From contig JAAOYA010000010.1 in assembly GCA_018221105.1 (NCBI GenBank), positions 81,678-145,677 of the forward strand: 64,000 nt of DNA, written 5' to 3'. A model generated the notes under the pieces. The model was not told where the DNA came from, searched no databases, and was given only the letters and a program-made list of their open reading frames with translations. A program made the translations under genes and the position numbers. This document shows positions 28,776 through 47,824 of this stretch, piece after piece. The DNA is from Candidatus Woesearchaeota archaeon. Its GTDB lineage: Archaea; Nanobdellota; Nanobdellia; Woesearchaeales; JAAOYA01. Position 1 is the stretch's first letter. Each line of letters opens with the position of its first letter.

Positions 28776-28778
28776 TGA

Positions 28779-29249: not shown

Positions 29250-29401
29250 AAGTTAAAAGTTTTGGGCTTATATGAGTTCTAGATAAATTTTAATTTAATC
29301 AATGATTATAAAATACTAAGGGTTTTGATTATGTTTTCGTCATCAATAACAGTGAGGTATCACGAATTTAATTATATATTGTGGTAACTTACCAATTGAT
29401 T

Positions 29402-29746
29402 ATGAACAACAACAATTGGATTAGGATACCTAAAAAAAGCAGTAAAAGGGCTAACCACATTCTAAGAACTTATCTAAATTCTGATTCAAAAAAAATAGTT
29501 CAAGACGTGGCAAAGAAAGAGGGCGATGGAGAATCTGATTTAGGGAGAAAGGCTCTCGAATTTTACATTAACACAGTAGCTAATGATGTGCAAGGACTTA
29601 AAGATTTTTATCAAAACAGTAATGGCGTTCTTTCAGAGTTGTATAAAGAAGTAAAAGAAGTAAAACGACTTTCGCAATCTAACGAGTCTTTGCTAAAAGA
29701 AATAAGGAAAAATCAGAAGGCAGTTAAACCGTCATCAGGCACCTAA
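29402..29746 (+). CDS. Hypothetical small protein with C-terminal coiled coil
   Basis: Met at 29402 within track ORF 29381; Lys-rich start, helical C-terminus. Confidence 0.5.
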   Translation: MNNNNWIRIPKKSSKRANHILRTYLNSDSKKIVQDVAKKEGDGESDLGRKALEFYINTVANDVQGLKDFYQNSNGVLSELYKEVKEVKRLSQSNESLLKEIRKNQKAVKPSSGT

Positions 29747-29884
29747 TAAAAGCTTATTTGTCGAGATAGAAAGGTTTAAATAATATCCCGATATACACCC
29801 TATTAGTTAAAGCGTTTAATTATTCAGTTTTAATTTAAGTTTCTATGCCAGCTTTAGTTTAAGTGCTTTTAGAGGTCAAATAAA

Positions 29885-30184
29885 ATGCGGGTCGGAGTTT
29901 ACAATTTATTAAAAAAGAAAAAACAACGTAACGAATTACATAGTAATAGATTTAATATTTCTTGCGTCGAAAAAATCTTATCGAAAGATAGAGACCCCAA
30001 ATTAGCCCCAGAATCGCTTAAAAAATTAAAAAGAACTCCGCCGACCTTACCTAAAAAGTCGGCTCATGAATTAAATACTAGCTTCATAGATAACTCGTTA
30101 AATATTCTTTCCCAAGTTGACCTAGCGACGAAGACCCTAACAATATCGAACCCGTTTCTTGTCGGAAACAGCTCCCAATGCTAG
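29885..30184 (+). CDS. Hypothetical basic protein
   Basis: Preceded by Shine-Dalgarno-like agaggt 10 nt before ATG. Confidence 0.4.
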   Translation: MRVGVYNLLKKKKQRNELHSNRFNISCVEKILSKDRDPKLAPESLKKLKRTPPTLPKKSAHELNTSFIDNSLNILSQVDLATKTLTISNPFLVGNSSQC

Positions 30185-30291
30185 ACCAGCTAATGAGCAA
30201 ATAGATGCCAAAAACACCATCCACGTTAGGGTCATTTTATTTTTGCATTAAATGAGGTAGATGATAAAATAACAAGATGAGGTATAAAAAA

Positions 30292-30540
30292 ATGGCAAAA
30301 AAACCATGGTATAGAAAAAAGAAAACGGTAGATGGAATATTCGACGCTGCATATTGGTTTCTTCTTTTAGGCTTAATACTGATTTTAGTGCTTACTTTTG
30401 TAAAAGCAGACTCAATCGATAATGAAGAGTTGAGCAATGAAAAAACAAAGTTTAGCACAACAAATAACGTAGTGTTCCACGTACCAAACCACGAACCTGT
30501 TGAAATAACTTTAGTGTTCGCTGCGGAGGAATCCAAATGA
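30292..30540 (+). CDS. Single-TM hypothetical protein
   Basis: gaggt before ATG 30292, one hydrophobic segment, ATGA overlap with next gene. Confidence 0.6.
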   Translation: MAKKPWYRKKKTVDGIFDAAYWFLLLGLILILVLTFVKADSIDNEELSNEKTKFSTTNNVVFHVPNHEPVEITLVFAAEESK

Positions 30541-31229
30541 AAAAAATAACACTATTAGTACTGGCAAGTTTATTGCTAGCCAGTATAGTTAGCGCATTGC
30601 CTTGGCGACCTAGTTGCATAATGGAAGAAGTGCCAAGCTTTTTGAATTTCAATAATGAGACTTGGTACGAAGATTATGATTCGAGCAATAGGCAAGATTA
30701 TTGTGTTTATCCATTGGATACAGTTTATACTGGGAATATTACACAACGTTTTAACGACACTATTTTTATAGCGCAAGAAGTAGGATTTAATACTAATGGA
30801 AACTACTTTACCTATACAAATCCTGATTTCTGGACAATTGTTCAATTAACAGAGAAAAGCAATGTTAGAAATGTCGAAGTCTATTTTGAGTACTACTTTC
30901 CAAGTTATAATGGTTTTTGTTTACCTAATACTATAAATCCAGTAACAGGATTTTATGAAAGCCCACAAGCCGTACTTTTGACCAATGCTGAAAGCAACTT
31001 ATCAATAACAGGAACTTTTGACGACGCTATATATTACATGAATGGTAACGTCGTTTGTGACCAATGGAATAACTTTTCACGTGTTGTTACTGACTTTTCA
31101 AATGACCGTGGTAGTAGTTTTTCATCAGCTAGTAAAACAATTGGAAGTTTAGGGTTTGAACTCAAAAACGTTTACCTCAGGAATATTGAGATACGTGGAA
31201 GCACAGAAACAATAGAGGTGTGGAAATGA
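30537..31229 (+). CDS. Secreted protein
   Basis: N-terminal signal peptide 'MKKITLLVLASLLLASIVSALP'; overlapping start/stop with neighbours. Confidence 0.65.
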   Translation: MKKITLLVLASLLLASIVSALPWRPSCIMEEVPSFLNFNNETWYEDYDSSNRQDYCVYPLDTVYTGNITQRFNDTIFIAQEVGFNTNGNYFTYTNPDFWTIVQLTEKSNVRNVEVYFEYYFPSYNGFCLPNTINPVTGFYESPQAVLLTNAESNLSITGTFDDAIYYMNGNVVCDQWNNFSRVVTDFSNDRGSSFSSASKTIGSLGFELKNVYLRNIEIRGSTETIEVWK

Positions 31230-33124
31230 GTAAAAAAATACTGCTACTTTTTTTTATTGTTTTTTTATTAGCAGTAAATGTATTAGGACTTCAGGAAGAA
31301 CTGAACGTTACAACTTGTAGCGGAGCAACTTCTTGTTCGGAAGCGAATTATAATGATAACACTACTAGCATAGGTCATACTATTGCAAAGGCTGGGACAG
31401 GTACTAGCGAGTGGTCAAATTTTCAAGGCGATGTTAGTTCTACATTAGGCGATGTATGGTTTTATTTCAGACATGGTGGAGAAGCAGATGTTGCTAATAA
31501 TTGGGGCATTGATTTTAAAGATGTTGCAGGTACAACTACTTATTGTTCGATAAACGATATAGCAATGTCATCATCTGACACTTATGACACAAGAAACACA
31601 ACCACTGATTGCTCTTGGACAATATCAAGGCTCGATGACCTTAAAATAGAAGTGACAAGCGGGGTCAGTGGAAAGCCAGCAAATGGTTATATCTATTACG
31701 CCGACCTTTACATTACATACACAGGACTACCTTTTGGAATTTTAAATGCTACAATCACAGACCCTACTACTGACATCACTATTGATTCAAACACATCATT
31801 TTACTTGAACGCTACTGTTACTTGTAATGGCGATGTCGGAGCAGTGTGTGGTATTGTTTATGCTTGGGCAAGATACAATACTAGCGGTGTTGAACCAGAC
31901 ACAACAATGCTTTCACACTATTTCAATGTTTTTAATGATAGTTTTGACCGTGCTGATAGTGCAGACTTAGGTAATGGTTGGGTTGAAACTGATAATGTTG
32001 ATTGTCTTAATAGTATTGTAGATGGCACATATAAAATATATGACCCAAGTGGTGTTGGAACTGGTGAACGAGCTTGTGCTGCTTATCATGAAGATAGTTT
32101 TGAGGGGACAGCCCTAAACAATATCTCGTTTGATTGGCAGATTGAATCAGCTACTGGTGATGGTGCAGCAAATTATATATTAATTTACAATACTACTGGT
32201 GGAACTTATGCTCAATTCATATCTGATACTGATGGAAATTATTATTGGAACCATAAAGATGGCAGTCTTAATCTTGGTGCTTATACTGTAACAGAATGGG
32301 ATAGTTTTATTATGCAAAATATTACAACAACTGATTATGAATTAATATATGATGGTGTTAGCCAAGGAACTTTAAATTTTACAAGCCCACTAACTGGTGC
32401 AATAAGATTTAGACATTCATCAGCAGGCGGAAGAGAAGGTGTATCATACTTAGACAATTTGTCAATTACATCAGTTAACATGTCCTTTGTTTCACCTCTT
32501 TATACAATTTATAACGAAAACCCACTATCAAAAATTCTTAATCAAGGTGATGAGTGGAACATTTCATGGCTTGTTAATTACACTGGAACACAAGCATACT
32601 ATGTTGATGTATTGTTCAATAGTTCTTACGGTAGTGCAAGTATTCCTGATAATGATACCAATAACAGAAAAATAAACCCGACTGGAGGTGCACCGCCTGC
32701 CGATATTAGTTTTACATTAACATATCCTAATAGTGGTTGTTCAGAAGGAAACGGTTGTACTACCGCAAGTTGTACTGCTTGTACTTACTGCCACATAAAT
32801 TTTTCAACTTTATACGACTCCAACGTATCGTGTGTTGGTCAAAATAGCACTGTTCCTTTTTGGATTTATACAAATACAGGGGATGTTAGTATGGATATCG
32901 TTTGGGAGTGGAACGAAACAATAGATAGTGCTTTAACGCTAAAATATGACACTGATAATAATCCAACTGGGGCGACTATTGTTCCCGACCCGCCAACAAC
33001 TGTTAATATTGCACTAGCCCTTGCTCAAGGGAATAATCAAAGTATTTGGGGATGGGGCGACCTTACGGTTGGCGTTGCGGGAAATTATACTTACAAAATC
33101 GATGCGACGAGTTCGCAAAGTTAA
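31226..33124 (+). CDS. Secreted surface protein with LamG/concanavalin-like region
   Basis: Signal peptide 'KKILLLFFIVFLLAVNVLG'; 'NDSFDRADSADLGNGWVE' resembles jelly-roll domain start; Thr/Asn-rich. Confidence 0.65.
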   Translation: MSKKILLLFFIVFLLAVNVLGLQEELNVTTCSGATSCSEANYNDNTTSIGHTIAKAGTGTSEWSNFQGDVSSTLGDVWFYFRHGGEADVANNWGIDFKDVAGTTTYCSINDIAMSSSDTYDTRNTTTDCSWTISRLDDLKIEVTSGVSGKPANGYIYYADLYITYTGLPFGILNATITDPTTDITIDSNTSFYLNATVTCNGDVGAVCGIVYAWARYNTSGVEPDTTMLSHYFNVFNDSFDRADSADLGNGWVETDNVDCLNSIVDGTYKIYDPSGVGTGERACAAYHEDSFEGTALNNISFDWQIESATGDGAANYILIYNTTGGTYAQFISDTDGNYYWNHKDGSLNLGAYTVTEWDSFIMQNITTTDYELIYDGVSQGTLNFTSPLTGAIRFRHSSAGGREGVSYLDNLSITSVNMSFVSPLYTIYNENPLSKILNQGDEWNISWLVNYTGTQAYYVDVLFNSSYGSASIPDNDTNNRKINPTGGAPPADISFTLTYPNSGCSEGNGCTTASCTACTYCHINFSTLYDSNVSCVGQNSTVPFWIYTNTGDVSMDIVWEWNETIDSALTLKYDTDNNPTGATIVPDPPTTVNIALALAQGNNQSIWGWGDLTVGVAGNYTYKIDATSSQS

Positions 33125-33148
33125 AAAAATAAAACGAGGTAAAAAAAC

Positions 33149-33829
33149 ATGGAAAGACAAAAAAGTTATTGTAAATGTGTGCATATGGACTATTGTAATT
33201 TTTGTAAAATTAAAATATCAGAAGAATCGATAACAAAAGGATATTGTGTAGCCTGTGGTGAAGTACCGTACATCATAACGGGAGAAAAGTGTCCAGTGTG
33301 TTTTGATGTGTCATATCTTAATCAAATAACTAAAGAGATAGCAGGTTGTAGATGTGAAAGAGATATCGGTAATGAAATAACAGATGTAGAGATTAGAAGA
33401 AAAGCCTACAAAAAATTTGAAGAAGAAGATGCCAGATACATTCTAAAGTGTCTTAAGTTAGATGAAAAAGAGATAAAACAACGTTTAGAAAACTTGAAGA
33501 AAGTACAAGTAGAAAGAGAAAAAACAAAAGAAGAGTACATAGGTTTTATCTTCGGTTTATCAAAAGTCGCAATTGAAAGTTATGACAAGGCGAAGGAAAC
33601 ACTAGAAAATGAGCACTTAGTGGAATTAACAAGTTCGGAAGTAATTAATGAGATGGCTCTGCGCACTACATTTAGTCAAAACAATCCTTTGAACAAAATA
33701 ATGCCACAACTTGAGATTATTATAGAGAGAAATAAATGGAGCTGGGAGCAATTCAGTAGGAAAATAATAAATTGGTTCGATGATTGGGGCGACCTTGAAG
33801 AAACCCTAAGAAAAAAAGCATTTGATTAA
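33149..33829 (+). CDS. Cysteine-rich zinc-ribbon protein
   Basis: 'CKCVHMDYCNFCKIKI...GYCVACGE....KCPVCF' with gaggt before ATG. Confidence 0.6.
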   Translation: MERQKSYCKCVHMDYCNFCKIKISEESITKGYCVACGEVPYIITGEKCPVCFDVSYLNQITKEIAGCRCERDIGNEITDVEIRRKAYKKFEEEDARYILKCLKLDEKEIKQRLENLKKVQVEREKTKEEYIGFIFGLSKVAIESYDKAKETLENEHLVELTSSEVINEMALRTTFSQNNPLNKIMPQLEIIIERNKWSWEQFSRKIINWFDDWGDLEETLRKKAFD

Positions 33830-33830
33830 G

Positions 33831-34154
33831 ATGTCAAATTATAATAAACTCAAACTTGATCTGGGAGATGAATCTTTCATTATTCTAGATTACAGAGAGG
33901 CTATGACTTTGCTTTCAATTATTGAAGCGATGAAACAATTTCATAGATGGGGAAAGAAGCATTATACCATAAAACAACTGGCTAAAAAAACTCGTGAGGT
34001 CAGAAAAAACCCTTACGTGACAAAAGAAATAATCATAAGAATGATAAAATGGCTAATCGGCAGACACTTGCATATCATTCAAGTTAACAAATATAGATTT
34101 ATATTTCCCACTAAGGACTTTATTAAAAATAATTTGGAGGAAAAAAACAAATGA
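33831..34154 (+). CDS. Small conserved protein, paralog of next ORF
   Basis: 'KLKLDLGDESFIILDYREAMTLLSII....RMIKWLIGRHLHIIQVNKYRFIFPTKDFI'. Confidence 0.6.
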   Translation: MSNYNKLKLDLGDESFIILDYREAMTLLSIIEAMKQFHRWGKKHYTIKQLAKKTREVRKNPYVTKEIIIRMIKWLIGRHLHIIQVNKYRFIFPTKDFIKNNLEEKNK

Positions 34155-34516
34155 CTGAAGAAAAAAAAGTAAAAAGGTATAAAATTTCATTTGGCAAAAG
34201 AGATTACATTTACTTGGACAAAAGAGAAAAGGCAGCCTGGAATTTATTGTTAGCGACAATGTATATACTGTATAAAAAAGAAATAGAACGCTATTCAATG
34301 ACTAGATTGCTCAAAACAGCTTATAAATTAAGGGATAAAGAAACTGAGTATTACATGACAGAAACAAGACTTCGGCGTTTAGTACCATATCTTGTTGTAC
34401 AAAGACCTCGCCTTTTACACATTCGCCAGAGGGGAAATTTTCGACTTTTAAGACCTTCAAAATACTATATAGAAGAACACATAGGTAAAAAAACTAAAAA
34501 GGTAACCCCTAGCTAA
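34151..34516 (+). CDS. Small conserved protein, paralog of previous ORF
   Basis: 'RYKISFGKRDYIYLDKREKAAWNLLLA...RRLVPYLVVQRPRLLHIRQRGNFRLLRPSKYYI'; ATGA overlap. Confidence 0.6.
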   Translation: MTEEKKVKRYKISFGKRDYIYLDKREKAAWNLLLATMYILYKKEIERYSMTRLLKTAYKLRDKETEYYMTETRLRRLVPYLVVQRPRLLHIRQRGNFRLLRPSKYYIEEHIGKKTKKVTPS

Positions 34517-34775
34517 CCCCTTAACTATATTAGTAATCAGAAGAAGAACTTTAAGCCCTATACTACCTTTAAAAAACTAAATCCTTTATCACCTAAATTA
34601 AATTTATAAATTCATCCTTTTGCGGGTTTAGTTTTCAAGTTAAGAAATTAGCGACAGCTACACTAGAATAATGGGACTGCTATAGTCCCAGAACGTTATA
34701 AACGAAAACTCAATCAATTTCCAAAGACCTGAGCAAGTCTAAAAAGGGCTTCAAGAAACCGAAAGGGGAATAGTA

Positions 34776-34985
34776 ATGAAAAACGATTTGAATATCTACA
34801 AAAGAAAACTTGTAATCGTAATATATCACGAGAACCCTAATTCTAAAGCCCTTACATTAAAAGGGTACTGTTTCGAGACATCTAACGAGTTCATATATCT
34901 AAAATCTGGCGGTGGCATTGTTACTTCTATCAAAAAAGAATGGATTAGAAAAATAAAAACAAAGGAAGGTGACACAAATGGGTAG
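34776..34985 (+). CDS. Small hypothetical protein
   Basis: ORF overlapping start of helicase-like gene. Confidence 0.5.
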   Translation: MKNDLNIYKRKLVIVIYHENPNSKALTLKGYCFETSNEFIYLKSGGGIVTSIKKEWIRKIKTKEGDTNG

Positions 34986-37266
34986 ACCGCCTTCTATTGA
35001 TTACAGGGATAAAATAGCGAAAGAGATGTTATTAAATTACAGTGGAAAACATATCAAAACCTTAAAAGTGCCAAAAGTGGGAGTGACTACAAGTCTTGTA
35101 AAAAATAGTATTGAACTTAATCAACGGATAGTATTGGTATCGCCAACTAAAGAAATACTTGAAAAAACAGAAAGGGTTGTCAATGAATTATTAGGTAAAA
35201 AAGTAAAATCAATGTATATTCATCCAAATCTTGGCAATATTAAATTAATAAAAGATGAAGATGACTATGATTTAGATTATAATGAACTCAAAAAAAGTTT
35301 ATGTAAGATAAAAGTAAGTAAAGTTCTTAGAAATGGTTTAAAGTTTTCACGTTTGTTAAAAGAAGGCAAAAAGGAAGAATGTGATAAATTAAAAAAACTA
35401 CATCATTTAGAGCCTATTCCACAAAATTGTAAAACTTGTAAAGAAGACTGTAAGCTAAATCAAATTGTGGAAGCAAAAAACAACGAGGAAAAAATCGATG
35501 TTATCTTAATCACATATCAAAAACTCGATAATTTATTAAGCACTAACAATAAAAAGTTACAAGAAGTGCTAGAATTAATATTCACTTCTGATAATATAAT
35601 ACTGGACGAGTTCACAACTAGCGTAACTAAAACTGATGAAGGAATAAAACTACTTGAGCAACCTAAAGCATTTGATAAAACATATAATCTAATTAGTGAA
35701 GCTGTAGAACAATTTAAAGATGAAATAGGTTTAATGTTAGATGAAGATATTAAAAATAATAATGCGCTAGGCGAGTTCTTACCAACAATTTGGTATCTGA
35801 TAAGCGAAGTAATAAATTTCTTGCAAGATTTAGAAATAGAAAAACATGATACCTTTTTAGAAAAAATAAAAGAAAAAATAACAGATGAAGAAGAAAGTAA
35901 AAAAGTAAAAACAGAACTATACGAACAAGGAATGGCTTATCTGGTCAAAATAATAAAGAATCCCTTTTATGAAACTTATAGAATAATCCAAACAAAGAAT
36001 AAGGGCTGGTCTTTCTTCAAATTCTATGAACTTTATTTTAATAAAGGAAAAAATGTTGAATTACTAGAAACACTCTATAATCTGCTCGATTATGAATATT
36101 TTATCATTGAAAAAGCGAACAGTGAGTACACAATAAAAGATATTAACACTGGATATAGAGACTTTCTTTTTAATCTACAACTAAATTTTAATGGTCAAGA
36201 CCAATTATTAGCAATAGTAGATGCTGGCATGCCTAAATCTTTAGAGTTCTTAAACAAATTTAAAGAAATAGAAGATTATGAAGTTGGTGACCCGAAAAAT
36301 ACACAAAAGATGATTATGCTTGTTTGCGACGACATTGACATCAAAAGTGAAGTTGGTTTTATCAAAAAACGTGGGCGACAAGAAAATATAATAGATGTGC
36401 TAACCAACTGGGCAACCATACACAAGAATAAAAAAGGTGCGCTAATAACAAAAACAGGTTACGAGGAAGTCCCCACTGGTCATTCCCCGTTTAAGATTGC
36501 TCAAGTTATAGGTAAATGGTTTAAAGAGGGTAGAATATCAAGAGAGTCTTTCATTCATTACTATTTCCGTGATATTTATAATCGTGGTACAGATTTTCCT
36601 TTTGAGAAACAATCAATTTTCAGTATGGGTCTTCCTTACCCACCAACTAATATTTATTTTAATAAAGCTATTGTTAAGAGGGATAAAGAAGGATTAGAAC
36701 TGGTCAATAGATATGGGTCGTCTGACTTATTCAGAGACTTATTAAAGGACTCAGAAAGCGATATTGAAGATTTAGAGTTAATACCTACCCTAAATAAAAT
36801 ATTATACGATGATAACGTTTCAAGTAGTTTTAATAATTACATTTTAAGAAACAAAACAGAACGTGGTAATAAACGATTAACCAACTTTTGCCTTCTAACA
36901 AAGTATGATGATGTCATTAAATGCCTAAAGAATGGTTATGATAAATATCCAATGCCTGTGGTTATTAAAGGATACTCGCAAGGAGACTGTTATAAAGACG
37001 TATTAATGTATGAACGTCTTTTCCAAAAATACGGCGATGTCTTAAACCCTCAACATATTCCCTTACTTGCCCGTATTATCAGAAGAGTTAATGAAAAGAA
37101 AAAAGAAAGTGTTAACCTTTTTCATATTAAAGCGGTCAAGAGAAAAAGTTTAGAAAGTGAAGAAGAGACCGAACTAATAAAAGAAGTGTTCAATAGTGAA
37201 GTAAATCTTCAAATACTTAAAGCAGAACTTAAAGAAAAGTACTTTAATTTAAGAATAAAATTTTAA
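34978..37266 (+). CDS. SF2 helicase-like protein with degenerate Walker A
   Basis: 'VPKVGVTTSLV' at P-loop position, 'IVLVSPTKEIL', 'VILITYQ', 'NIILDEFTT', 'YNRGTDFP', 'IPLLARIIRR'; ATG 34978. Confidence 0.65.
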   Translation: MGRPPSIDYRDKIAKEMLLNYSGKHIKTLKVPKVGVTTSLVKNSIELNQRIVLVSPTKEILEKTERVVNELLGKKVKSMYIHPNLGNIKLIKDEDDYDLDYNELKKSLCKIKVSKVLRNGLKFSRLLKEGKKEECDKLKKLHHLEPIPQNCKTCKEDCKLNQIVEAKNNEEKIDVILITYQKLDNLLSTNNKKLQEVLELIFTSDNIILDEFTTSVTKTDEGIKLLEQPKAFDKTYNLISEAVEQFKDEIGLMLDEDIKNNNALGEFLPTIWYLISEVINFLQDLEIEKHDTFLEKIKEKITDEEESKKVKTELYEQGMAYLVKIIKNPFYETYRIIQTKNKGWSFFKFYELYFNKGKNVELLETLYNLLDYEYFIIEKANSEYTIKDINTGYRDFLFNLQLNFNGQDQLLAIVDAGMPKSLEFLNKFKEIEDYEVGDPKNTQKMIMLVCDDIDIKSEVGFIKKRGRQENIIDVLTNWATIHKNKKGALITKTGYEEVPTGHSPFKIAQVIGKWFKEGRISRESFIHYYFRDIYNRGTDFPFEKQSIFSMGLPYPPTNIYFNKAIVKRDKEGLELVNRYGSSDLFRDLLKDSESDIEDLELIPTLNKILYDDNVSSSFNNYILRNKTERGNKRLTNFCLLTKYDDVIKCLKNGYDKYPMPVVIKGYSQGDCYKDVLMYERLFQKYGDVLNPQHIPLLARIIRRVNEKKKESVNLFHIKAVKRKSLESEEETELIKEVFNSEVNLQILKAELKEKYFNLRIKF

Positions 37267-37480
37267 TTTTCCCGAATTTCAGGTAGCGTTTTATGGAGAC
37301 TATTCCAATAATATTAATTGTACTGTTTACAAGCCCCGACTACCAAATCGTCTAATAGGATTTTAAGATGTTTATTACATGTATATTTAATAGACGATTT
37401 GGTAGTCCGTACTTTACGGGGTTTTCAGTTACATGAAACTCTAATACAATCTATAAAAAGCGGGCTGAAATTCGGGAAAA
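37267..37480. repeat. Nested inverted repeats
   Basis: Outer 16-bp arms ttttcccgaatttcag (37267-37282)/ctgaaattcgggaaaa (37465-37480); inner 17-bp arms gactaccaaatcgtcta (37338-37354)/tagacgatttggtagtc (37391-37407). Confidence 0.85.
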
Positions 37481-37619
37481 ACGTCTCTTTAAAAAATTTC
37501 AGAATTTACGAATAATCGCAATATAACTATTAAAACATTTACTCGGTACAGAAACCAAGTCTCATAAAACTCTGTTTTTGCTTTCTTAACAGCTTTTTCT
37601 TTATCCTCTCGCCCTAACA

Positions 37620-37820
37620 GCATAGTATAATTTCCCGTTTAACCCCGCCTAAAAGACCCGAAAAGACCATCTGGAACTTTCGAAATAAGGGGTCAGGAGT
37701 AAAACGAGGCAAGCGTATAACGAGAATTGACCAGAACTTCCTACGTCCTGCGCAGAAGGTTGAGGAGCGTCAGCGACGAAAGACAGAGCGAAGCGAGGGC
37801 ATGTAGAGTATGCCTTTCAA
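37620..37820 (+). ncRNA. Candidate structured ncRNA (strand uncertain)
   Basis: GC-rich ORF-poor stretch in AT-rich element; short hairpins such as cgtc-agc-gacg and terminal ggcat-gtagagt-atgcc followed by Ts. Confidence 0.35.
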
Positions 37821-37837
37821 GAAAATTTTAAAAAGTG

Positions 37838-38215
37838 TCAAATAGAAAATAGTTTAACTACTACAACGGATAATTGAATTACAAATCCTAATAAAATTAG
37901 AAATAAGCCTTGTGAATTTTGAAGATTAAGAAGGTGGCTCAATCTTCTTTTAGAAAGGTCTTGTGTTTTTATCCTGCCCACTTTTTCTCCTCGTTTTAAA
38001 CCATTTAGTTGTCTTCTTATTTTTTGTTTTGCTAATTCAAAATATCGCATTGTCTTTTTATCTTGTGCTAAAAGCCAAACCCCTAAAATATCAATTGACA
38101 ACCCGATTGCTAATGTTAACAATAATAGTTTTTCAGTGTTGTAAATTTTAAGAACTACACTTAACAAAAAGAATACTAAAAGTAGAACTATATTACTTTT
38201 TTTCATAAACCTCAT
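37838..38215 (-). CDS. Small membrane protein
   Basis: Two N-terminal hydrophobic helices and one C-terminal. Confidence 0.55.
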   Translation of the reverse strand: MRFMKKSNIVLLLVFFLLSVVLKIYNTEKLLLLTLAIGLSIDILGVWLLAQDKKTMRYFELAKQKIRRQLNGLKRGEKVGRIKTQDLSKRRLSHLLNLQNSQGLFLILLGFVIQLSVVVVKLFSI

Positions 38216-38242
38216 CTAGTTGTTCTTAATTTAAATATTTTT

Positions 38243-39178
38243 TTAATCATATAACAATTTATGAATATCTTTTAATTTTCTTCGATTTTCATAAATAAAA
38301 TTTTTAAGTTCTTTGACTTTTACTATCTCAATAAGAGCGTCTTTACTTGTTGTATATAAATCACCAATAAATTTAAAACAATTTTCAAGAGAATGATAAT
38401 AAATATCACGGGCTTTTTCTCCGCTATAAATATGATCAACTTTAAAGAAAGTTTTATTTATGTTATAATCATATACTTTGTATATATGTTTCAAACGAAT
38501 CAAATCTCTTCTTAAATCACTATATTCAAGTTTTTTAAAACTATTGAATTTTATAAAAAGTGTATTTAAGGTGTCTACTTCAATCGGAAAGGTATGTATA
38601 GTTCCAACAAAATAATCGTGAAAATCATTATTTTTTCTCTTCAAAGAAATTCTTAGTTTTTTCCAATTTTCAATAAATTCTTTATAAATTTTGTAATCAA
38701 AAGGTTGTTCGGTAATTCGTTTTTTGTAGTCATTAAAAAAATCTAACATAACTTTTTTTTCTTTATTTGAGAGACTTTTATCATCATTAACCCTCTTTAT
38801 ACTCTCTTCAATATTGGTCGGTGTTCTACTTCTAAAAGAATTTGCAACAGTTCCTAAATTATATTCTAAATCAAATATAAAATTTTTAAATAATTCCAAT
38901 TGTTGATTGAATTTTTCTTTTTCAAATCTAAACTGCTCTAGTAAAAAAATGGTATAGACTATTAAAATTGTAAAAACAGAAGTGAAAACTCCAGCGTAAA
39001 AGTTATTTACTTGGTTTTCTAAAGCTAAATTATAAAAGTGAAATGTAATTATTATTAAAATCAAATAAATCATTATATTGAAATAATTTCTATAAAACCA
39101 TTTTTCAACATTACAAAAATGCTTACTAATTATACACTCCATATTACGTACTATAAAAAATAACGTATATATAAACAA
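38243..39178 (-). CDS. Two-TM membrane protein with cytoplasmic helical domain
   Basis: Two hydrophobic segments (MIYLILIIITFHFY; FYAGVFTSVFTILIVYTIFLL) then charged helical domain. Confidence 0.55.
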   Translation of the reverse strand: MFIYTLFFIVRNMECIISKHFCNVEKWFYRNYFNIMIYLILIIITFHFYNLALENQVNNFYAGVFTSVFTILIVYTIFLLEQFRFEKEKFNQQLELFKNFIFDLEYNLGTVANSFRSRTPTNIEESIKRVNDDKSLSNKEKKVMLDFFNDYKKRITEQPFDYKIYKEFIENWKKLRISLKRKNNDFHDYFVGTIHTFPIEVDTLNTLFIKFNSFKKLEYSDLRRDLIRLKHIYKVYDYNINKTFFKVDHIYSGEKARDIYYHSLENCFKFIGDLYTTSKDALIEIVKVKELKNFIYENRRKLKDIHKLLYD

Positions 39179-39206
39179 TGTTATTAAACAATATAAAAAT
39201 AATTAT

Positions 39207-39467
39207 TCAAATTTCATACCTTAATACTTCTTTGCCCAATTTCGTAATCATATACGCTTTGTAAGACCCTTTGCTAGGGGTCAAGCACTCTATTAATTTT
39301 TCTTTTTCTAATTGATAGACTGCTTTAGAAATATCTTGTTGTTTTCGTTTCATCTTTTTTGCTATCTCGGATTGTAGCAACGGACTTTTCTTATCAAGTG
39401 TTTTTAGAATGCCGTGACGAATTTTACTAGTAATGACCAAACCGTATAGTTCCTTAATTTGCCTCAT
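39207..39467 (-). CDS. Winged-helix transcriptional regulator
   Basis: 'RHGILKTLDKKSPLLQSEIAKKMKRKQQDISKAVYQLEKEKLIECLTPSKGSYKAYMITKLGKEVL'. Confidence 0.8.
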   Translation of the reverse strand: MRQIKELYGLVITSKIRHGILKTLDKKSPLLQSEIAKKMKRKQQDISKAVYQLEKEKLIECLTPSKGSYKAYMITKLGKEVLRYEI

Positions 39468-39505
39468 ATTGTTAGGTAATATTTAAATATAAGATTAAAT
39501 AATAA

Positions 39506-39517
39506 AACCTTAAGGTT
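39506..39517. promoter_or_regulatory. Palindrome in divergent promoter, candidate operator
   Basis: Perfect palindrome aaccttaaggtt between divergent genes 39207-39467(-) and 39551-39895(+). Confidence 0.4.
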
Positions 39518-39550
39518 ACCGTAGACTACCATATAATGAGGGGCGGAAAA

Positions 39551-39895
39551 ATGAAACAAGTAATTATAATATTAATGTTAGTATCGTTTTTGATTTTAGC
39601 AGGCTGTTCTCAAGAAACGATTTATGTTTGTTCAGATGGGACAGAAGTAACAGATAGTTCTGATTGTTCTATTCAAAAAGAACAACTGACTGACTCTGAA
39701 GAAATAATGGAAAAGGGAATACGAGTCGAATGTAACGGCGACGAAGATTGCCCAGGGGGTTACTGTGATATGAGAGGTAGTCCTCCAGAATGGGAATGTA
39801 AAGAAGCCAGTTTACCAAGCGAATTTTGTGGCAATGAAATTTGTGATAAGGGTGAGACTTATGTAAGCTGTCCTAGAGATTGTACAAGACCTTAA
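39551..39895 (+). CDS. Cysteine-rich lipoprotein
   Basis: 'MKQVIIILMLVSFLILAGCSQ' lipobox; ATG 39551. Confidence 0.7.
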   Translation: MKQVIIILMLVSFLILAGCSQETIYVCSDGTEVTDSSDCSIQKEQLTDSEEIMEKGIRVECNGDEDCPGGYCDMRGSPPEWECKEASLPSEFCGNEICDKGETYVSCPRDCTRP

Positions 39896-39941
39896 TTTAA
39901 TCATAGATTGTCAACTGAAACAAAAAAAGAAAAGAATAACT

Positions 39942-40850
39942 ATGAAAGAAAAACCAACTTTGTTTAGTTTAAAGAATATATTAGTTTCTTTTCTCATAAT
40001 TTTATCTGTTACATTTTGTTATTATGTTTTTCAAAGTTCTTCTAAAATTCATTCACTATCAATTAGAATTAACAATTTAGAAACGGAAACAAATTCTTTA
40101 AATTCAGAAATAAGTGATCTGAACTCTCAACTTAGTATAAAAGACTTTACTATACAAAATCAAAGGGCTGAAATTGAACAACAAAAACAAGAAATTCAAA
40201 AACTTGAAACAGAGTTAGGAATAACAAAATCAGAATTAGCGGAAGCCAAACCTTATCAAGAGAGAGTTATAAGCGGTCAAAATATTATGGAATCTTACAA
40301 ACTTTTAAGTGACTATACTGATTATACGAGACCAATAATACTTGATTATCTTGAATTAGAATCTCCAGTGACTCCATCAAATGACAATTATTTATGGGAA
40401 AGGGGAAAACAAGTTTATAATTGGTTATCAGATAACTATGCTTACTGTGGAGATAAAGGTTTAAGAGTTGGCACTACCTTTTCAGAATTTCAATTTTATA
40501 GCCCTGACGAACTATTAATATCTAGTAATAATCGTTGCGGTGATTGTGATGACTTCGCTACACTATTTGCAGGTTTAATGTATGCTTCAGGAGTTCCTAA
40601 AAATAAAGTTTGGGTTGTTTGCGGAAAAGTATCAAATGGGGGACATTGTTGGAATTCACTAGTATTAGATGATAAAACGTACAGAATTGACGGAATTTGC
40701 TCACAAAAAGATGAATTATTCGGTTTTTTAGGTTTTAGTCTTGGTATTAAAAAAGCATATTATACGAATACAAAAACAAACGTTGACTGTCTCTCAGAAT
40801 ATACACCCCGAATGAAAATGAACCCTGAAGGAGCTTATATGCTTAGTTGA
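39942..40850 (+). CDS. Membrane-anchored coiled-coil protein with transglutaminase-like domain
   Basis: N-terminal TM, coiled coil, then 'NRCGDCDDFATLFAGLMYASGVPKNKVWVV...GGHCWNSLVLDDKTYRID' (Cys-His-Asp triad). Confidence 0.75.
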   Translation: MKEKPTLFSLKNILVSFLIILSVTFCYYVFQSSSKIHSLSIRINNLETETNSLNSEISDLNSQLSIKDFTIQNQRAEIEQQKQEIQKLETELGITKSELAEAKPYQERVISGQNIMESYKLLSDYTDYTRPIILDYLELESPVTPSNDNYLWERGKQVYNWLSDNYAYCGDKGLRVGTTFSEFQFYSPDELLISSNNRCGDCDDFATLFAGLMYASGVPKNKVWVVCGKVSNGGHCWNSLVLDDKTYRIDGICSQKDELFGFLGFSLGIKKAYYTNTKTNVDCLSEYTPRMKMNPEGAYMLS

Positions 40851-40873
40851 AACTGTCCAATACTCAAATTTAA

Positions 40874-41098
40874 TTAATTTGATATTAAACTCTTTATTTT
40901 GTCAGGTATGGCTCTGTAACCCATTAAATATAGACCAACTATTAAACCAATTAAATCCACATACCAATTAGGCGTGAATGTTCCTGTAAACAATCCTATC
41001 AAAAACATAATTCCTGAAACAATGAAAATGACTGTTCCAAAAACTTCTATTAACCAATGTTGTGCTTCATTAAATAATCCCATAGTTATACCCCTCAA
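40874..41098 (-). CDS. Small membrane protein
   Basis: Two hydrophobic segments. Confidence 0.5.
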   Translation of the reverse strand: MRGITMGLFNEAQHWLIEVFGTVIFIVSGIMFLIGLFTGTFTPNWYVDLIGLIVGLYLMGYRAIPDKIKSLISN

Positions 41099-41130
41099 CT
41101 AAGTTATTAATAGTGATAAGTTTTAATACA

Positions 41131-41949
41131 TTATAAATTTTTTCCTTTTTTTAAAACAACAAGATAATAACCTGCTAGTAACCCGTATGATACTCCAATA
41201 ACGTGTGAAAATACATTGGTTTCAGGTATTAGTTCGAGAGAGTAACCACCAAGCGTGTAGTATGTTAATAACCCAAGAAATATTATTGCAATACAAGTGT
41301 TTGCCCATTTTTTAGTTTGTAAAAAACTAATCAAAATAAGCAAATACAATGGGACAAAAAACATTAATGCGAATAGACTGCCAAACTTTGACTGAAAAAC
41401 AAGTGTTATTAATAACAATACAGAATAAATTATCATAAATATAGAGCCTTTTTTTCGATTGTTCATTCTTGTCAATATTAAAACAGAAATGACTGATAAC
41501 CCCAAGAATGCCGCAACAATGTCAGAAGCCCCATTTTGCGTCTTTAATAGGTCACCTAAAATAAATATGTAAGTCAAAATACCGCTTAATAGAGGAACAA
41601 TTAAAATAAACCCTAAAAACAATTTTCTAAAGATTCTTTGTAGTTTCTCTTTATAAAAAACTAAATAATTAACAGTCATTAGTATAAAGTAGCTTTTTAT
41701 ATTTCCTAAAAAATGTCCTGCTTCATTATGATAATACGACTGTGTCAAAAAAGTCCAAAAGTATGTCTTATCAACATTTAACCAAAAATAAGCAGGATTG
41801 TCTTTGAAAAGAAGATATATTAGAACTAAAAACAAACCAAAAATTGTGTATACTAAATACCATAACCAAAAATCTTTTTGTTTAAAGATATTTGTCCAGT
41901 CTTTTAATTCTTCTTTGATCTGATTTAATATTCCCTTATGGCTTCTCAT
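41131..41949 (-). CDS. Rhomboid-like intramembrane protease (putative)
   Basis: Multi-TM; 'HNEAGHFLGNIKSYF', 'NGASDIVAAFLG' (GxS-like) and 'FSHVIGVSYGLLAGYY' (His in last TM) fit the rhomboid layout. Confidence 0.55.
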   Translation of the reverse strand: MRSHKGILNQIKEELKDWTNIFKQKDFWLWYLVYTIFGLFLVLIYLLFKDNPAYFWLNVDKTYFWTFLTQSYYHNEAGHFLGNIKSYFILMTVNYLVFYKEKLQRIFRKLFLGFILIVPLLSGILTYIFILGDLLKTQNGASDIVAAFLGLSVISVLILTRMNNRKKGSIFMIIYSVLLLITLVFQSKFGSLFALMFFVPLYLLILISFLQTKKWANTCIAIIFLGLLTYYTLGGYSLELIPETNVFSHVIGVSYGLLAGYYLVVLKKGKNL

Positions 41950-42322
41950 GGTTTTTTCTATTCTCAAAATGACGAACTTTATCATTAATCATACGACTTA
42001 TAGTCATTAACAAGTATGCTTGTAAGTTTTTGTTAATGGTTGACGGTTTTACAGAAATGCAATCAATATCTAGTTTTTTGTAGGCATTTAGTTTTGCTTT
42101 TTTCCCTTTATCATAATTATCATCACCTTGAACGCCGAAGTATTCTATAACGATTGAATATTTAGGAAGCCAGAAGTCAGGATACCAAATGCGTAGTTTT
42201 TCGCCGTCGCCATCTTTTTGTTCTTTGATTAGCAAAGGATACTCATATTCAAAATCTATGGAGTGTTTTTTTAGAATTTCAGCGATTGCTCGCTCCCCCT
42301 TACTTTTGTAATTATTAGTCAT
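41936..42322 (-). CDS. PD-(D/E)XK-type endonuclease (VSR/DUF559-like)
   Basis: 'GERAIAEILKKHSIDFEYEYPL....IWYPDFWLPKYSIVIEYFGV'. Confidence 0.72.
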   Translation of the reverse strand: MTNNYKSKGERAIAEILKKHSIDFEYEYPLLIKEQKDGDGEKLRIWYPDFWLPKYSIVIEYFGVQGDDNYDKGKKAKLNAYKKLDIDCISVKPSTINKNLQAYLLMTISRMINDKVRHFENRKNHEKP

Positions 42323-42330
42323 TTTGGTTA

Positions 42331-43476
42331 TTAAGCAACAATATTAAACCAGTCTTTATATTTTTTATAATATTCTTTAATTTCTGCGTCAAATAAATGC
42401 AAATTTCCCTTAAGATTAATTTCTAAGTCTTGTTTGAAATAATCAATAAAATTATTCATGATAAATTCGATACATTTTTCTAGATTATCAATATGACACA
42501 CAATTATTGATTGACTCCAACGTCCACTTAATGTTTTAGGAAATCTCTCAGGTTCTTTTGGTTTGTGCTGATAAATAAAATAATTAACCTTTTTCAAATT
42601 TTTGATTTTAATCTCATCCTCTTTTAACCCGCCAACTTCTTTGGTTTTTTTATTATCAAAACCTGTCTCTGTCTTTTTTACTTCGTAATCAATAGTCAGT
42701 ATTTCTCTGTTTGTTACAACAATGGGTATTATTGATTGAACAATAAAATAAAGGTTGTTCAGTTCTTTACGATAATCTTTTTCGCGAATATAAGCAGTTG
42801 TAGTAAAATATTCAGTCATATTTCTTAAAAATTTATACATTGTTTCTAAATGACTGAACGCCTTATCATAATTATACTCTACTGCTGGTAAAACTTGTTC
42901 TTCACAAAAGGTAAACAGACTATCTTCTTTTCCATCTCTTGCTTTTACTTGTTCTGGATTAATTATTTTAGTATTTTCTAGAACTGTAACTCTATCCGAT
43001 ACAATAATTCCTTCAGTATTAATATTATTTTGAAAAGCGAAAAAAGTGAGAGCGTTTGCTTGTTTTAGTAAAGGCAAAAATATTTGACCATTTATAGTTA
43101 CAGGAATTGAAATTAACTCTTGTCTTGTAAGACTTTTATCAAGGGGTTGTGTAACAAAGAAATATCTATCATCTCTACTTGAATACTTACATTCTCCAAT
43201 AAAAGCAGTGTTAAATGAACTATTAAAGTTTTCTATGTCCGTTTTTACAGAAATTTCTTTAAAAGCATTTATATCAATCTCTTTAGTAATATCTTTATCA
43301 TTCCTCTTTTCAGTATAATGAGTATGATAATGACTAAAATCAAATTTTGAGAATATTAATCTTGCTTGTTCTTCTAATAAAATGCCAGAATCTATTATTC
43401 CCTTTTCAAGCTTGGTTCGAAATTTTTTATCGTTTCTGAAATTCTCTATTAATTTATCAGCTGTAATACTTAACAC
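42331..43476 (-). CDS. Putative PD-(D/E)XK restriction-like nuclease
   Basis: 'LLEEQARLIFSKF....KEIDINAFKE....AFIGECKYSSRDDRYFFV' E-D-ExK arrangement. Confidence 0.6.
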   Translation of the reverse strand: MLSITADKLIENFRNDKKFRTKLEKGIIDSGILLEEQARLIFSKFDFSHYHTHYTEKRNDKDITKEIDINAFKEISVKTDIENFNSSFNTAFIGECKYSSRDDRYFFVTQPLDKSLTRQELISIPVTINGQIFLPLLKQANALTFFAFQNNINTEGIIVSDRVTVLENTKIINPEQVKARDGKEDSLFTFCEEQVLPAVEYNYDKAFSHLETMYKFLRNMTEYFTTTAYIREKDYRKELNNLYFIVQSIIPIVVTNREILTIDYEVKKTETGFDNKKTKEVGGLKEDEIKIKNLKKVNYFIYQHKPKEPERFPKTLSGRWSQSIIVCHIDNLEKCIEFIMNNFIDYFKQDLEINLKGNLHLFDAEIKEYYKKYKDWFNIVA

Positions 43477-43562
43477 CCCATTATTTTAGATTATTAGGAA
43501 ATATTTAACTTTATTGCCTTTCTAGTCTATTTGAAAACTAAATTGTCCAACTTCGCATATAA

Positions 43563-45356
43563 TTAATTAATAAACCTGAACAAGTCTATATCTGAAAAAT
43601 TAAATTTCTTAAACCCATTTCTATTAAATTGTATTAGAATTTCATTAAAAAGACTTTTTAAATCTAAAACTGTTATATCTAAAGAAGAAAATTTAGAATT
43701 TAAAATATTGAAAAAATCCTTAATGTCATTAAGTTCTTGCATATTGCTCAACATATTAATACAATAATAAATTTTTTTGACTCCTTTTTGATTCACATAA
43801 TCAAGTTCTTTATAGATTTTTCTTTTTTCATTTCTTGATATTTTAGCATTTTTTATGAAAACTGCTAAAGGGTCTTTTGATAAATCATAATATACGTCAA
43901 TATCAGGACAGTCTTTCTCTTTTTTATTTAGTCTATGATTTCTCATGATTTTATCATGGGATGTATCAGTGGTTTTTTCTAAAAGAGGTTTTATTTTTTT
44001 ATCAACTTCTCCTTTAATTTTAAGATTTGTCATATCTAACAATAATTCATGTACTAAATATTCTGATATTTGACCACTAAAAGTTCTAGTGATTATTTGT
44101 AATTGGTAATTTGTAAGTTTTTCATCATGTTTATATTTGAAGATTAATCTAGATTGTCTTATCTTATCTAACACTCCTGAAGCAATATTTTTTATTTTCT
44201 TTTGATTGGAATCCCTAGCCAATTTGACTAATTCAAATTCTATTAGAATTATTTTAAGGAAGGATTTAAGCATTAGCATTTCTGATGAAAAATAATCTAA
44301 CTGTGATTTGTTTATATGTTTCTTTTCCACGAACACAATATTTACAAGATATGTGTGAAGTTTATCAATATGTCTTAACGCAGAAAAAAAATCAAAAGTA
44401 ACATATAATGAATGTAAATAATCAGAGTATAAAGTATCAATTATTGTACCTACTAGTCTTTCTTCAAGTATTTTTTTTTGATTTGGTGTAGAAGTTATAG
44501 ATAACAATTTTTCGTATACTCTTTTTGCTTCTTGACTAGATGAACGCAAAGCTCTTGTTAAATCATTTACAGAAGTTAAGTAATTTTCATTGCCACTTTG
44601 TTCATAATTATTTAGATAAAAATAAAGTTTAAATTTGTAATTTCTATAAAGAAGATTAAAAATCAAACCTAAATTATAAGTCATCTTCTCAGGAAAATTT
44701 AATGCTAAATCTTTAAGTAGTAGTAAATGCTTTTCAACTGAATTAAGTATGTCTAAATCTTCTTCTTCATACACAGTTTTTCCTACTACGTGTTTGTAAG
44801 TTTTATGAAGATAAATTCCTAAAATCGAGTCAAAAATCACATAAAATCTCCCATCTAAATTATTACCAATATCTCTAATATGGTTATACATCTTCGAAAA
44901 TTGGTCAATGTGGCTTTCTCTAAATACTAATTTCTTTGAATCTTTTTCTGCAAGTCTAATACACAAAGAATGATAGTATCTTGACATTATATCTAAAGAA
45001 CCTTCAGAATAAGTTCTTATTTTCATTCTAGCTAATAAAAACTGTAAAGCTGTAATAAAATTATGAAAAGCTATTTCATAATTTTTTTCTAAAAAAAACA
45101 TGGCAGTTCTTGAATAAAAATTATGGGAAATATGATAAAGATTTAGGGTTGTATTTGATTGTTCATATATATTTTTAACTTTTTCGAACTCTTCTTTCAT
45201 AGAATCATAAAGACTACTAGGGATTGGTTTATCAGTTTTAAGAAAATTGTTAATTTGTTCAAAGTATTCATTTAATTTTTTCTCTGTTACGAAAGGGTTT
45301 GGTGGTTGAGGATTTATTCTTAACCCCTCTTCTACGGAACGGATTACCATTTTCAT
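43563..45356 (-). CDS. Large helical protein with possible divergent C-terminal PD-(D/E)XK fold
   Basis: Helical repeat-like N-terminus; C-terminal 'SGQISEYLVHELL....CPDIDVYYDLSKDPLAVFIKNAKIS'. Confidence 0.45.
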   Translation of the reverse strand: MKMVIRSVEEGLRINPQPPNPFVTEKKLNEYFEQINNFLKTDKPIPSSLYDSMKEEFEKVKNIYEQSNTTLNLYHISHNFYSRTAMFFLEKNYEIAFHNFITALQFLLARMKIRTYSEGSLDIMSRYYHSLCIRLAEKDSKKLVFRESHIDQFSKMYNHIRDIGNNLDGRFYVIFDSILGIYLHKTYKHVVGKTVYEEEDLDILNSVEKHLLLLKDLALNFPEKMTYNLGLIFNLLYRNYKFKLYFYLNNYEQSGNENYLTSVNDLTRALRSSSQEAKRVYEKLLSITSTPNQKKILEERLVGTIIDTLYSDYLHSLYVTFDFFSALRHIDKLHTYLVNIVFVEKKHINKSQLDYFSSEMLMLKSFLKIILIEFELVKLARDSNQKKIKNIASGVLDKIRQSRLIFKYKHDEKLTNYQLQIITRTFSGQISEYLVHELLLDMTNLKIKGEVDKKIKPLLEKTTDTSHDKIMRNHRLNKKEKDCPDIDVYYDLSKDPLAVFIKNAKISRNEKRKIYKELDYVNQKGVKKIYYCINMLSNMQELNDIKDFFNILNSKFSSLDITVLDLKSLFNEILIQFNRNGFKKFNFSDIDLFRFIN

Positions 45357-45636
45357 ATGTTTTTAATTAGGTTATGTAAAAATCTTATGGTATAAATTCA
45401 AAAATTCTTCTTCAAAACTCGCTTTAGTTTCCTAATTCAGCCTAAAACCCTTAAATTCGGACATTTCAGCCGTTTTTGACCGAAAGTTTTATAAATAAAA
45501 ACCCCTCAATTCTTTATAAATAGGGGTCTCGAGGCACTAAACCCGCTCTGCTAAATTCTCTTAAAACCGAGCAAGAAATTAGCGTGAGCTATACACTCGG
45601 CGACTCCTTCTAAAAGAAAAGCAAACGGAGGTAAAA

Positions 45637-46251
45637 ATGAGTACCAAAACAAAAAAACAAAGTGATAGCTCTAAACTAGCGACAATAGAACTTCCTGGCA
45701 AGATAGGTTTCGGAAGAAACTTTTGGGAAGTTATCGACACTATAGATAGCGACACAGTGATTTACGCAAAACAAGGTCGGGGCGACGAGGAAATGCTAAT
45801 GACAGTTGACCAATTAAAGAATACCGACCCGCAACTAAAAATAGAAGCTACAGAGACTAGAACAGTGTTAAAGTTTAGCGAGTCTTTCGATTTCAAGTTC
45901 ATAGTCTTGAGTCGAAAACCTATGGAAATGATAGAGAGGGACAAGCGACGAGTAAGAGATGTCATCGGAGCGATTGTTGACGGTTTTAACACTGGCGACG
46001 AATACAACGACAAGGACTTTGACCAGAAAGTTTCGGAGTTTCCGAGAGTGGTCAAGTACTACACTGATAACAACGAAGAACACTGGGTTAGTGACAATAA
46101 AGAGCTGTGGATTAGAGAAGACTTGTTTAAGGGGTTTTACGACCTTCTTAAAACCGTTATTGTCGCTTACACAGAGCTATCGAATGGCGAAAAATACGAC
46201 CCTCTGAAGTATTTAGAACGATTAGAAACAGTTCTACCTTATATAATTTAA
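45637..46251 (+). CDS. Hypothetical protein
   Basis: Strong ggaggt Shine-Dalgarno before ATG 45637, TATA-like tttataaat upstream. Confidence 0.65.
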   Translation: MSTKTKKQSDSSKLATIELPGKIGFGRNFWEVIDTIDSDTVIYAKQGRGDEEMLMTVDQLKNTDPQLKIEATETRTVLKFSESFDFKFIVLSRKPMEMIERDKRRVRDVIGAIVDGFNTGDEYNDKDFDQKVSEFPRVVKYYTDNNEEHWVSDNKELWIREDLFKGFYDLLKTVIVAYTELSNGEKYDPLKYLERLETVLPYII

Positions 46252-46325
46252 GGGGTCTAAAAAAGCTATCAGATAAAAGAAATAGGAATAAGTAAATATT
46301 AATAGGGGAACTAAACCAAATGGAG

Positions 46326-46343
46326 ATTCTCGCCGGGGGCTTA
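46326..46343 (+). repeat. att direct repeat, distal element boundary
   Basis: attctcgccgggggctta, identical to the 3' end of tRNA-Thr. Confidence 0.88.
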
Positions 46344-46363
46344 AATTTTTATTGACGAGAAGT

Positions 46364-46828
46364 TTATTTACTAGCGTATCGTATAACATAAATACTTAAA
46401 GCAAGCAAAACACCAAACACTCCACTTCTTATATAATTAATTTCTCCTCCTGTTAGAGGTAGAGTCATGATAAATGCAACCCCAAATATTACTGCCATGA
46501 AAATACTAAAAAACTTTAGATTCTTTTTTGATGACTCGCTGATCTTTGAAGATTGCTCAGAATTTAAATTTTGATCGCTTTGCTTATATATTTTAAAATA
46601 GTAAATCAGTCCGCCTAATCCGCCTAAAAATAATGTTGTTCCAACATAAATTGTTGGCATGTTTCTTTTTTTAACATCAGCAAATACAAAATAAGTTAAG
46701 ACAATCCAAATAACTATTAATGAATAAAATAATATTCCTTTTGGGGTGTATGACAAGGAAACAAAGTTATAAACAATAGTCATAATTAATGAAATAATAC
46801 TTGTTATTAATATTAAATTCTTACCCAT
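46364..46828 (-). CDS. Multi-TM membrane protein
   Basis: Hydrophobic segments; lies between att repeats 2 and 3. Confidence 0.6.
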   Translation of the reverse strand: MGKNLILITSIISLIMTIVYNFVSLSYTPKGILFYSLIVIWIVLTYFVFADVKKRNMPTIYVGTTLFLGGLGGLIYYFKIYKQSDQNLNSEQSSKISESSKKNLKFFSIFMAVIFGVAFIMTLPLTGGEINYIRSGVFGVLLALSIYVIRYASK

Positions 46829-46837
46829 TGTTAAACT

Positions 46838-47251
46838 CTAATAAGCCCTCGCAGTTTTACAATAATCATTTAAGCTCTCACTTTGAATTTTAGCACAATA
46901 CTCAATATTACCTGTACTTATCGCAAGCACTTTATTGCAGTTATCGATAAAGTCTTGTGAAGAACTATCATCACATTTGGAATAATCAAGTTGATTTTTA
47001 AAAATAATACCTCCATAACAAGTTCCCCTATGCCTTTCCTGAATAATTTTTTCACAAACTGATAAATCTAATACCTTGCTAGAAGCTGCTAAATAACAAC
47101 TGTCCCTCTCACTCTCGTCATTTATTGCTTTACACCTGCTAAGTAAGTCCGAAGCTTCCTTTTCTTCGGCAGTTTGGCAGGAAGTCAAAAAAAGAACCAA
47201 TATTACGGCCATAATCAAGAATAATAGCTTAGTGCGATTGTTATTGCTCAT
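46838..47251 (-). CDS. Cysteine-rich lipoprotein
   Basis: 'LFLIMAVILVLFLTSCQ' lipobox; multiple Cys. Confidence 0.7.
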   Translation of the reverse strand: MSNNNRTKLLFLIMAVILVLFLTSCQTAEEKEASDLLSRCKAINDESERDSCYLAASSKVLDLSVCEKIIQERHRGTCYGGIIFKNQLDYSKCDDSSSQDFIDNCNKVLAISTGNIEYCAKIQSESLNDYCKTARAY

Positions 47252-47323
47252 GTAAATATTCTTCTATAGCACCTATTTAAAATTATCGATATTTTTAATG
47301 TCTTTATATGTTAGCTGTAATAG

Positions 47324-47366
47324 TTTTCCCTTTTCATGTCACTTTTTTAAAAGCTCGCCGGGGGCT
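47324..47366 (+). repeat. 43-bp composite repeat, copy 1 (25-bp block + N5 + tRNA 3' end 13-mer)
   Basis: ttttcccttttcatgtcactttttt-aaaag-ctcgccgggggct. Confidence 0.85.
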
Positions 47367-47424
47367 CGTATTTCTAAGCACGATAAAACAAAAGTTTAAG
47401 TAGTAGTTATTAGACAACTATATT

Positions 47425-47706
47425 ATGAAACGAGCATTTTTAACCATCTTAAGCATCACATTATTGTTTAGTTTAGTTGGTTGCGATAGTAGTCTAAAAG
47501 TTCAATGCTGTCAAGAATGTATAGATGCAGCAAATGAGCAAATTCCTAATATGGATCTTGAAGGTCGAAATACTGATAACTTAAACTGTTATGCTTTTAT
47601 AGATTATAACTCCGATCAATGTGCAGAATACTTTACTGAAAAGTTTAATCCTGAAGGCAAAACACACAATTCTATAAGCTTAGGAGAATGTAAAGCAACT
47701 AGTTAA
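47425..47706 (+). CDS. Small cysteine-rich lipoprotein
   Basis: 'MKRAFLTILSITLLFSLVGCDSSLKVQCC'. Confidence 0.7.
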   Translation: MKRAFLTILSITLLFSLVGCDSSLKVQCCQECIDAANEQIPNMDLEGRNTDNLNCYAFIDYNSDQCAEYFTEKFNPEGKTHNSISLGECKATS

Positions 47707-47712
47707 TATTCT

Positions 47713-47755
47713 TTTTCCCTTTTCATGTCACTTTTTTGTTTTCTCGCCGGGGGCT
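47713..47755 (+). repeat. 43-bp composite repeat, copy 2
   Basis: ttttcccttttcatgtcactttttt-gtttt-ctcgccgggggct. Confidence 0.85.
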
Positions 47756-47824
47756 CCACTTTTTTTTGGTAAGATTTTTAAAGCAGTCATGGTATTGTTA
47801 TCTAAAAGAGGTTTTTAGTGGTTT

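Follow-up and report, generated by a model that had tools for sequence, protein, structure and literature searches.

Behind the 3′ end of a tRNA-Thr gene in a Candidatus Woesearchaeota archaeon, the final nucleotides of the tRNA recur at intervals, and between the recurrences lie small gene-bearing modules that have no integrase. How did such modules come to be there, and which enzyme could have placed them? We examined the 64,000-nucleotide stretch that contains the locus (the window; positions refer to it unless another locus is named), the rest of the host genome, and other genomes of the order.

The tRNA-Thr gene and the modules behind it

The final 13 nt of tRNA-Thr(TGT), the core CTCGCCGGGGGCT, occur four times in the 64-kb window, each time exactly and on the plus strand (Table 1), and no further copy was found there at up to two mismatches. 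Shuffled sequences gave a mean of 0.08 matches and no shuffle held four, ruling out chance recurrence of the core. The third and fourth copies, which the earlier note had reported as repeats in the same orientation, are thus exact and on one strand. A P-type ATPase gene starts at 47825, beyond copy 4, and the housekeeping genes eRF1, L37ae, TruD and adenylate kinase, which lie to either side, show that the locus is in an archaeal chromosome.

Table 1. Features of the tRNA-Thr locus and of the parallel locus L062 of genome G068
Feature	Position	Strand	Details
tRNA-Thr (TGT), target gene	27435–27507	+	ARAGORN; Rfam tRNA 64.8 bits
Core copy 1, end of tRNA-Thr	27495–27507	+	exact match
E1, integrated element with own tyrosine integrase, 18.8 kb	27508–46328	+	bounded by an 18-nt direct repeat
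E1 tyrosine integrase, 396 aa	27585–28775	+	Pfam Phage_integrase, E=4.8e-19; R, HxxR and Y motifs
Core copy 2, E1 right end	46329–46341	+	exact match; inside 18-nt att 46326–46343
E2, integrase-less module, 1012 bp	46342–47353		exact cores at both ends; no integrase remnant
154-aa predicted membrane protein (E2)	46364–46828	-	open reading frame
137-aa lipoprotein (E2)	46838–47251	-	lipobox LTSC; widespread Cys-repeat family
25-nt arm TTTTCCCTTTTCATGTCACTTTTTT, E2 right end	47324–47348	+	identical copy at 47713
Core copy 3, between E2 and E3	47354–47366	+	exact match
E3, integrase-less module, 376 bp	47367–47742		exact cores at both ends
93-aa lipoprotein (E3)	47425–47706	+	lipobox LVGC
25-nt arm TTTTCCCTTTTCATGTCACTTTTTT, E3 right end	47713–47737	+	identical to 47324 copy
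Core copy 4, chromosome border	47743–47755	+	exact match
G068, tRNA-Ala end	L062:4016
G068, integrase	L062:15807–17063
G068, three tRNA-Ala-end cores	L062:17192 (one mismatch), 17314, 17990		within L062:17192–18001

E1 is an ordinary integrated element with an intact integrase. Its end repeat, ATTCTCGCCGGGGGCTTA, spans 27492–27509 and 46326–46343, and its integrase carries a C-terminal zinc ribbon. Inside E1, an imperfect long inverted repeat at 37267–37480 has 38-nt arms that are 79% complementary, with an inner 27-nt pair at 85%, and is possibly the remnant of a small transposon. E1 also codes for a winged-helix protein (39207–39467) that resembles CARF/CasR regulator tails, and for a 128-aa protein (41936–42322) with a likeness to PADLOC candidate defence proteins at their nuclease-like end.

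The contents of E2 and E3 agree with the earlier note, which had described a membrane protein and a lipoprotein on the minus strand in one module and a single 93-aa lipoprotein in the other, neither with an integrase. Domain and remnant searches found no integrase, transfer or other mobility gene in E2 or E3, nor a remnant of one, and no core cuts a gene-sized open reading frame in either. Among 193 genomes of the order, the 137-aa lipoprotein has homologues in 87, and the 154-aa membrane protein has one clear homologue, in G152, where no tRNA gene lies nearby and the adjacent gene looks, from its translation, like a threonyl-tRNA synthetase. With 21 bits where the cut-off is 35, the 93-aa lipoprotein matched a 4-Cys lipoprotein model weakly. 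Around the modules, Rfam returned tRNAs and sub-threshold noise, and viral_contigs gave no matches to the E1 integrase, the 137-aa and 93-aa proteins, or the arm-plus-core pattern described below.

Integrase-less islets elsewhere in the host and in the order

The host genome has 25 tRNA genes, and two besides tRNA-Thr(TGT) carry integrase-less islets behind their 3′ ends. An islet of 0.69 kb with a 15-nt tRNA 3′-end repeat and one class II aldolase-like gene lies at a tRNA that ARAGORN calls Phe(AAA) and that we read as Thr(GGT) with an intron. The other, at Phe(GAA), measures 2.6 kb, has a 23-nt tRNA 3′-end repeat, and codes for membrane proteins, lipoproteins and a CcdA-like protein. Controls with the reverse strand and with 5′-end words yielded no islets. 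The proposal that the cargo consists of Cys-rich lipoproteins therefore stands for E2 and E3 only, the other islets carrying aldolase-like or membrane proteins.

The family of the E1 integrase is widespread, with matches in 233 of 288 genomes, many of the weaker and shorter matches probably being of XerA type. In the stretches examined, the integrase gene mostly comes directly after a tRNA gene, 75–360 bp behind it, and in about half of them the tRNA end is repeated 5–27 kb downstream. Additional tandem cores behind the integrase element were found in G001, after another 74 bp, in G099, after 130 bp, and in G068. The last, from another family of the order, is the best parallel to the E2/E3 arrangement and an independent one: a tRNA and an integrase element are followed by a core, a one-gene module and another core. 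Its array comprises a 122-bp gap and then, between the last two cores, a 0.68-kb module that lacks an integrase and whose one gene, intact, codes for a 168-aa P-loop protein.

A gene for a 188-aa protein upstream of the tRNA-Thr gene was present in 256 of 288 genomes in an order-level search, and its order with tRNA-Thr(TGT) is kept in several other families. Behind this pair, within the stretch seen, no element is present in G039 and G273, an integrase element follows in G285, and G129 has a 34-bp repeat unit; none of the genomes that keep this gene order has E2/E3-like modules within that stretch. A search of genome_contigs with the 188-aa protein returned no relatives of the locus.

Module ends and the origin of E2 and E3

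Core copies 3 and 4 belong to a 44-nt repeat (47324–47367 and 47713–47756) that had escaped the earlier note. It is laid out as a 25-nt arm, a 5-nt spacer, the 13-nt core and one C, and 39 of its 44 positions are identical. The arm occurs twice in the whole genome, at the right ends of E2 and E3, and is absent from the ends of E1 and from the host's other islets. Its sharing by E2 and E3 was far above a random 120-mer control.

We consider it reasonably probable that E2 and E3 are CIME-type islets, stacked with E1 at tRNA-Thr in the order E3, E2, E1 by site-specific recombination, the recombinase having been provided in trans. The attachment site, the 3′ end of tRNA-Thr, would have served at least three times, E3 inserting first between the tRNA and the chromosome, E2 next and E1 last. 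Each insertion would leave the 13-nt tRNA end behind once more, which puts the youngest element next to the tRNA. A recombinase from another element would have joined the att site of E2 or E3 to the tRNA end, and, while E1 or another element adjoins them, the modules could be excised alone or along with that element. The sequence of insertions, the enzyme and whatever mobility E2 and E3 may still have are inferences from this arrangement. Repeated insertion at this tRNA end, as the earlier note had proposed, is well supported by the exact tRNA ends with uncut genes between them, and also by the integrase-less islets at other host tRNAs and the independent G068 parallel. Stacking is favoured as well by the related integrases that sit behind tRNA genes with a repeated end, by the further cores in G001 and G099, by the arm common to E2 and E3, and by the variety of what lies behind tRNA-Thr(TGT) in other families.

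As for the enzyme, the action of the E1 integrase in trans on E2 and E3 is a guess; since the arms of E1 do not contain the 25-nt sequence common to E2 and E3, a different recombinase seems at least as likely. Counting against stacking, besides this difference in the arms, the only tyrosine recombinase in the host genome besides the E1 integrase is a shorter one, which by score and size we take to be XerA-like, and tRNA-end repeats of similar size arise in the order from another type of insertion as well (see below).

It is possible, if not what we would expect, that E2 and E3 are instead the immobile leftovers of larger autonomous elements at tRNA-Thr, from which the integrase and most genes were deleted. 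Loss of the integrase after integration is the usual account of integrase-less archaeal integrated elements (PMC8371274), and the lack of any mobility gene in E2 or E3 would agree with it. Such decay is harder to square with the compactness of the modules, whose genes are intact, whose cores are exact and whose 25-nt arms are identical, and with the absence of integrase or gene fragments from them. The stacked modules are possibly relics in part, having become fixed.

Local duplication would have copied the 44-nt end at core copy 4 to copy 3, or the reverse, leaving a single 1.4-kb insertion behind E1. The 39 identical positions, which include 25 nt beyond the core, are what such an event would produce; the five differences, however, are not scattered but form one 5-nt block next to the core; if five point changes fell at random on 44 positions, a contiguous block would have p ~4e-5 (40 of C(44,5)). 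Mismatches confined to the spacer point less to an aged duplication than to the layout of attP sites, in which a functional arm adjoins a spacer free to vary. The pattern is better fitted by a conserved arm and free spacer than by simple duplication of repeats 3 and 4, which we regard as unlikely; duplication plus one replacement event is possible.

A further process that repeats tRNA ends was seen in G118, which corresponds to archaeon GW2011_AR15 of the same order (identical over 3045 bp). In its loci L125–L145 and L146–L175, roughly half the tRNA genes have hairpin-rich modules of 50–110 bp behind them. The tRNA 3′ end is repeated where each module closes; some are in tandem, and some lie at protein-coding genes. 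Among 32 tested tRNAs, 11 had a hairpin module with a second tRNA end, with more at shorter repeats, and the flanking direct repeats measure 9–43 nt. Twelve aligned modules have two hairpins in common, with compensatory changes in the first. Covariation in this hairpin was 0.408 vs. 0.210 in shuffles, none of 500 being as high, in a comparison where the structure was drawn from the same sequences, which favours the score. A covariance model found 22 copies in G118 and a few in its family. Direct repeats of at least 10 nt flank 20 of 29 model hits, protein genes included, vs. 3% of control positions. The modules have the look of short insertions that are non-autonomous and duplicate 9–43 nt of their target, and searches with four of the loci returned no Rfam family.

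Matches to GCTTGANCGAAGNGAAAC, the motif of the first hairpin, in which a 5-bp stem pairs, were also found in Methanosarcina, Nanohaloarchaeota, Diapherotrites and Woesearchaeota (L228–L304, genome_contigs). These matches mostly lack flanking direct repeats, and since the scan fixed 16 bases, a good part of them is expected by chance. In the host genome, a 13-nt end repeat lies 55 bp behind tRNA-Ala(TGC) of the rRNA operon (L010:16240–16412, minus strand), with a small hairpin between.

That this hairpin process, with its variable-length target duplications, rather than a tyrosine integrase, placed E2 and E3 is very improbable: many G118 tRNAs do carry such modules with a second 3′ end, direct repeats accompany most model hits, and a single short unit of the kind lies at tRNA-Ala of the host, but E2 and E3 bear genes, their ends lack such hairpins, and the model found no copies in the host genome. 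With the hairpins missing from E2 and E3 and the model silent in the host, we keep the two phenomena apart. As a caution, short tRNA 3′-end repeats in the order have at least two origins.

If E2 and E3 do move, single genes that have no mobility gene to themselves could come and go at a tRNA of a small-genome archaeon, and tRNA ends would be a predictable place to find its variable genes. Recurrence of the arrangement in G068, from another family, and at other host tRNAs speaks against an isolated case within the order. We are doubtful of a wider reading, in which tRNA 3′ ends throughout the order would be a general landing place for tiny modules devoid of mobility genes, from 50-bp hairpin units to gene cassettes of 0.4–2.6 kb, all captured and exchanged by enzymes acting in trans, with E2 and E3 as the gene-bearing form of this tRNA-based cassette system.

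Comparison with known systems

The locus had been likened in the earlier note to an integron-like cassette array. Integron cassettes are likewise small cargo units that each end in a recombination site; here, in contrast, there is no IntI and no attC fold, and the putative site is a tRNA end. The E1 integrase scored 42 bits for integron integrase against a cut-off of 265, and the module ends fold no better than shuffles (z 0.5 and 0.2). On the integrase family and the missing attC folds, we reject the integron-like reading as unsupported.

Streptococcal CIMEs are att-bounded, lack an integrase, and share a single site with an autonomous element, next to which they stand in tandem. E2 and E3 are flanked by exact 13-nt cores, which would act as att sites, and have no integrase or transfer genes of their own; E1, with its integrase and 18-nt att, adjoins them at the same site. 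The CIMEs described are larger, and transfer by ICE–CIME accretion has been demonstrated experimentally in streptococci. Prochlorococcus tycheposons are likewise tRNA-bounded cargo islands with a tyrosine recombinase, but are bacterial and larger.

In archaea, elements that re-use one site in tandem and integrated elements without an integrase have been reported (PMC6563490, PMC8371274); in the portions of these papers drawn on here, the tandem elements are multigene, with no sub-kb one-gene modules among them. Nearest among published systems are the ssrA islands of Dehalococcoides. There, tandem modules follow a single RNA gene, a 20-bp copy of its 3′ end bounding each of them, and 15 islands without an integration module were proposed to be cis-mobilizable and mobilised by accretion (PMC3146451). 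Those islands are bacterial, use a serine recombinase (DsiB) and carry dehalogenase genes, whereas the present locus is archaeal, has a tyrosine integrase, and stacks modules with one or two genes each. Since such bacterial counterparts exist, we regard the stacking of E2 and E3 as a small-size form of a known tandem-island arrangement, the unusual feature being the size of the modules, 0.38 and 1.0 kb.
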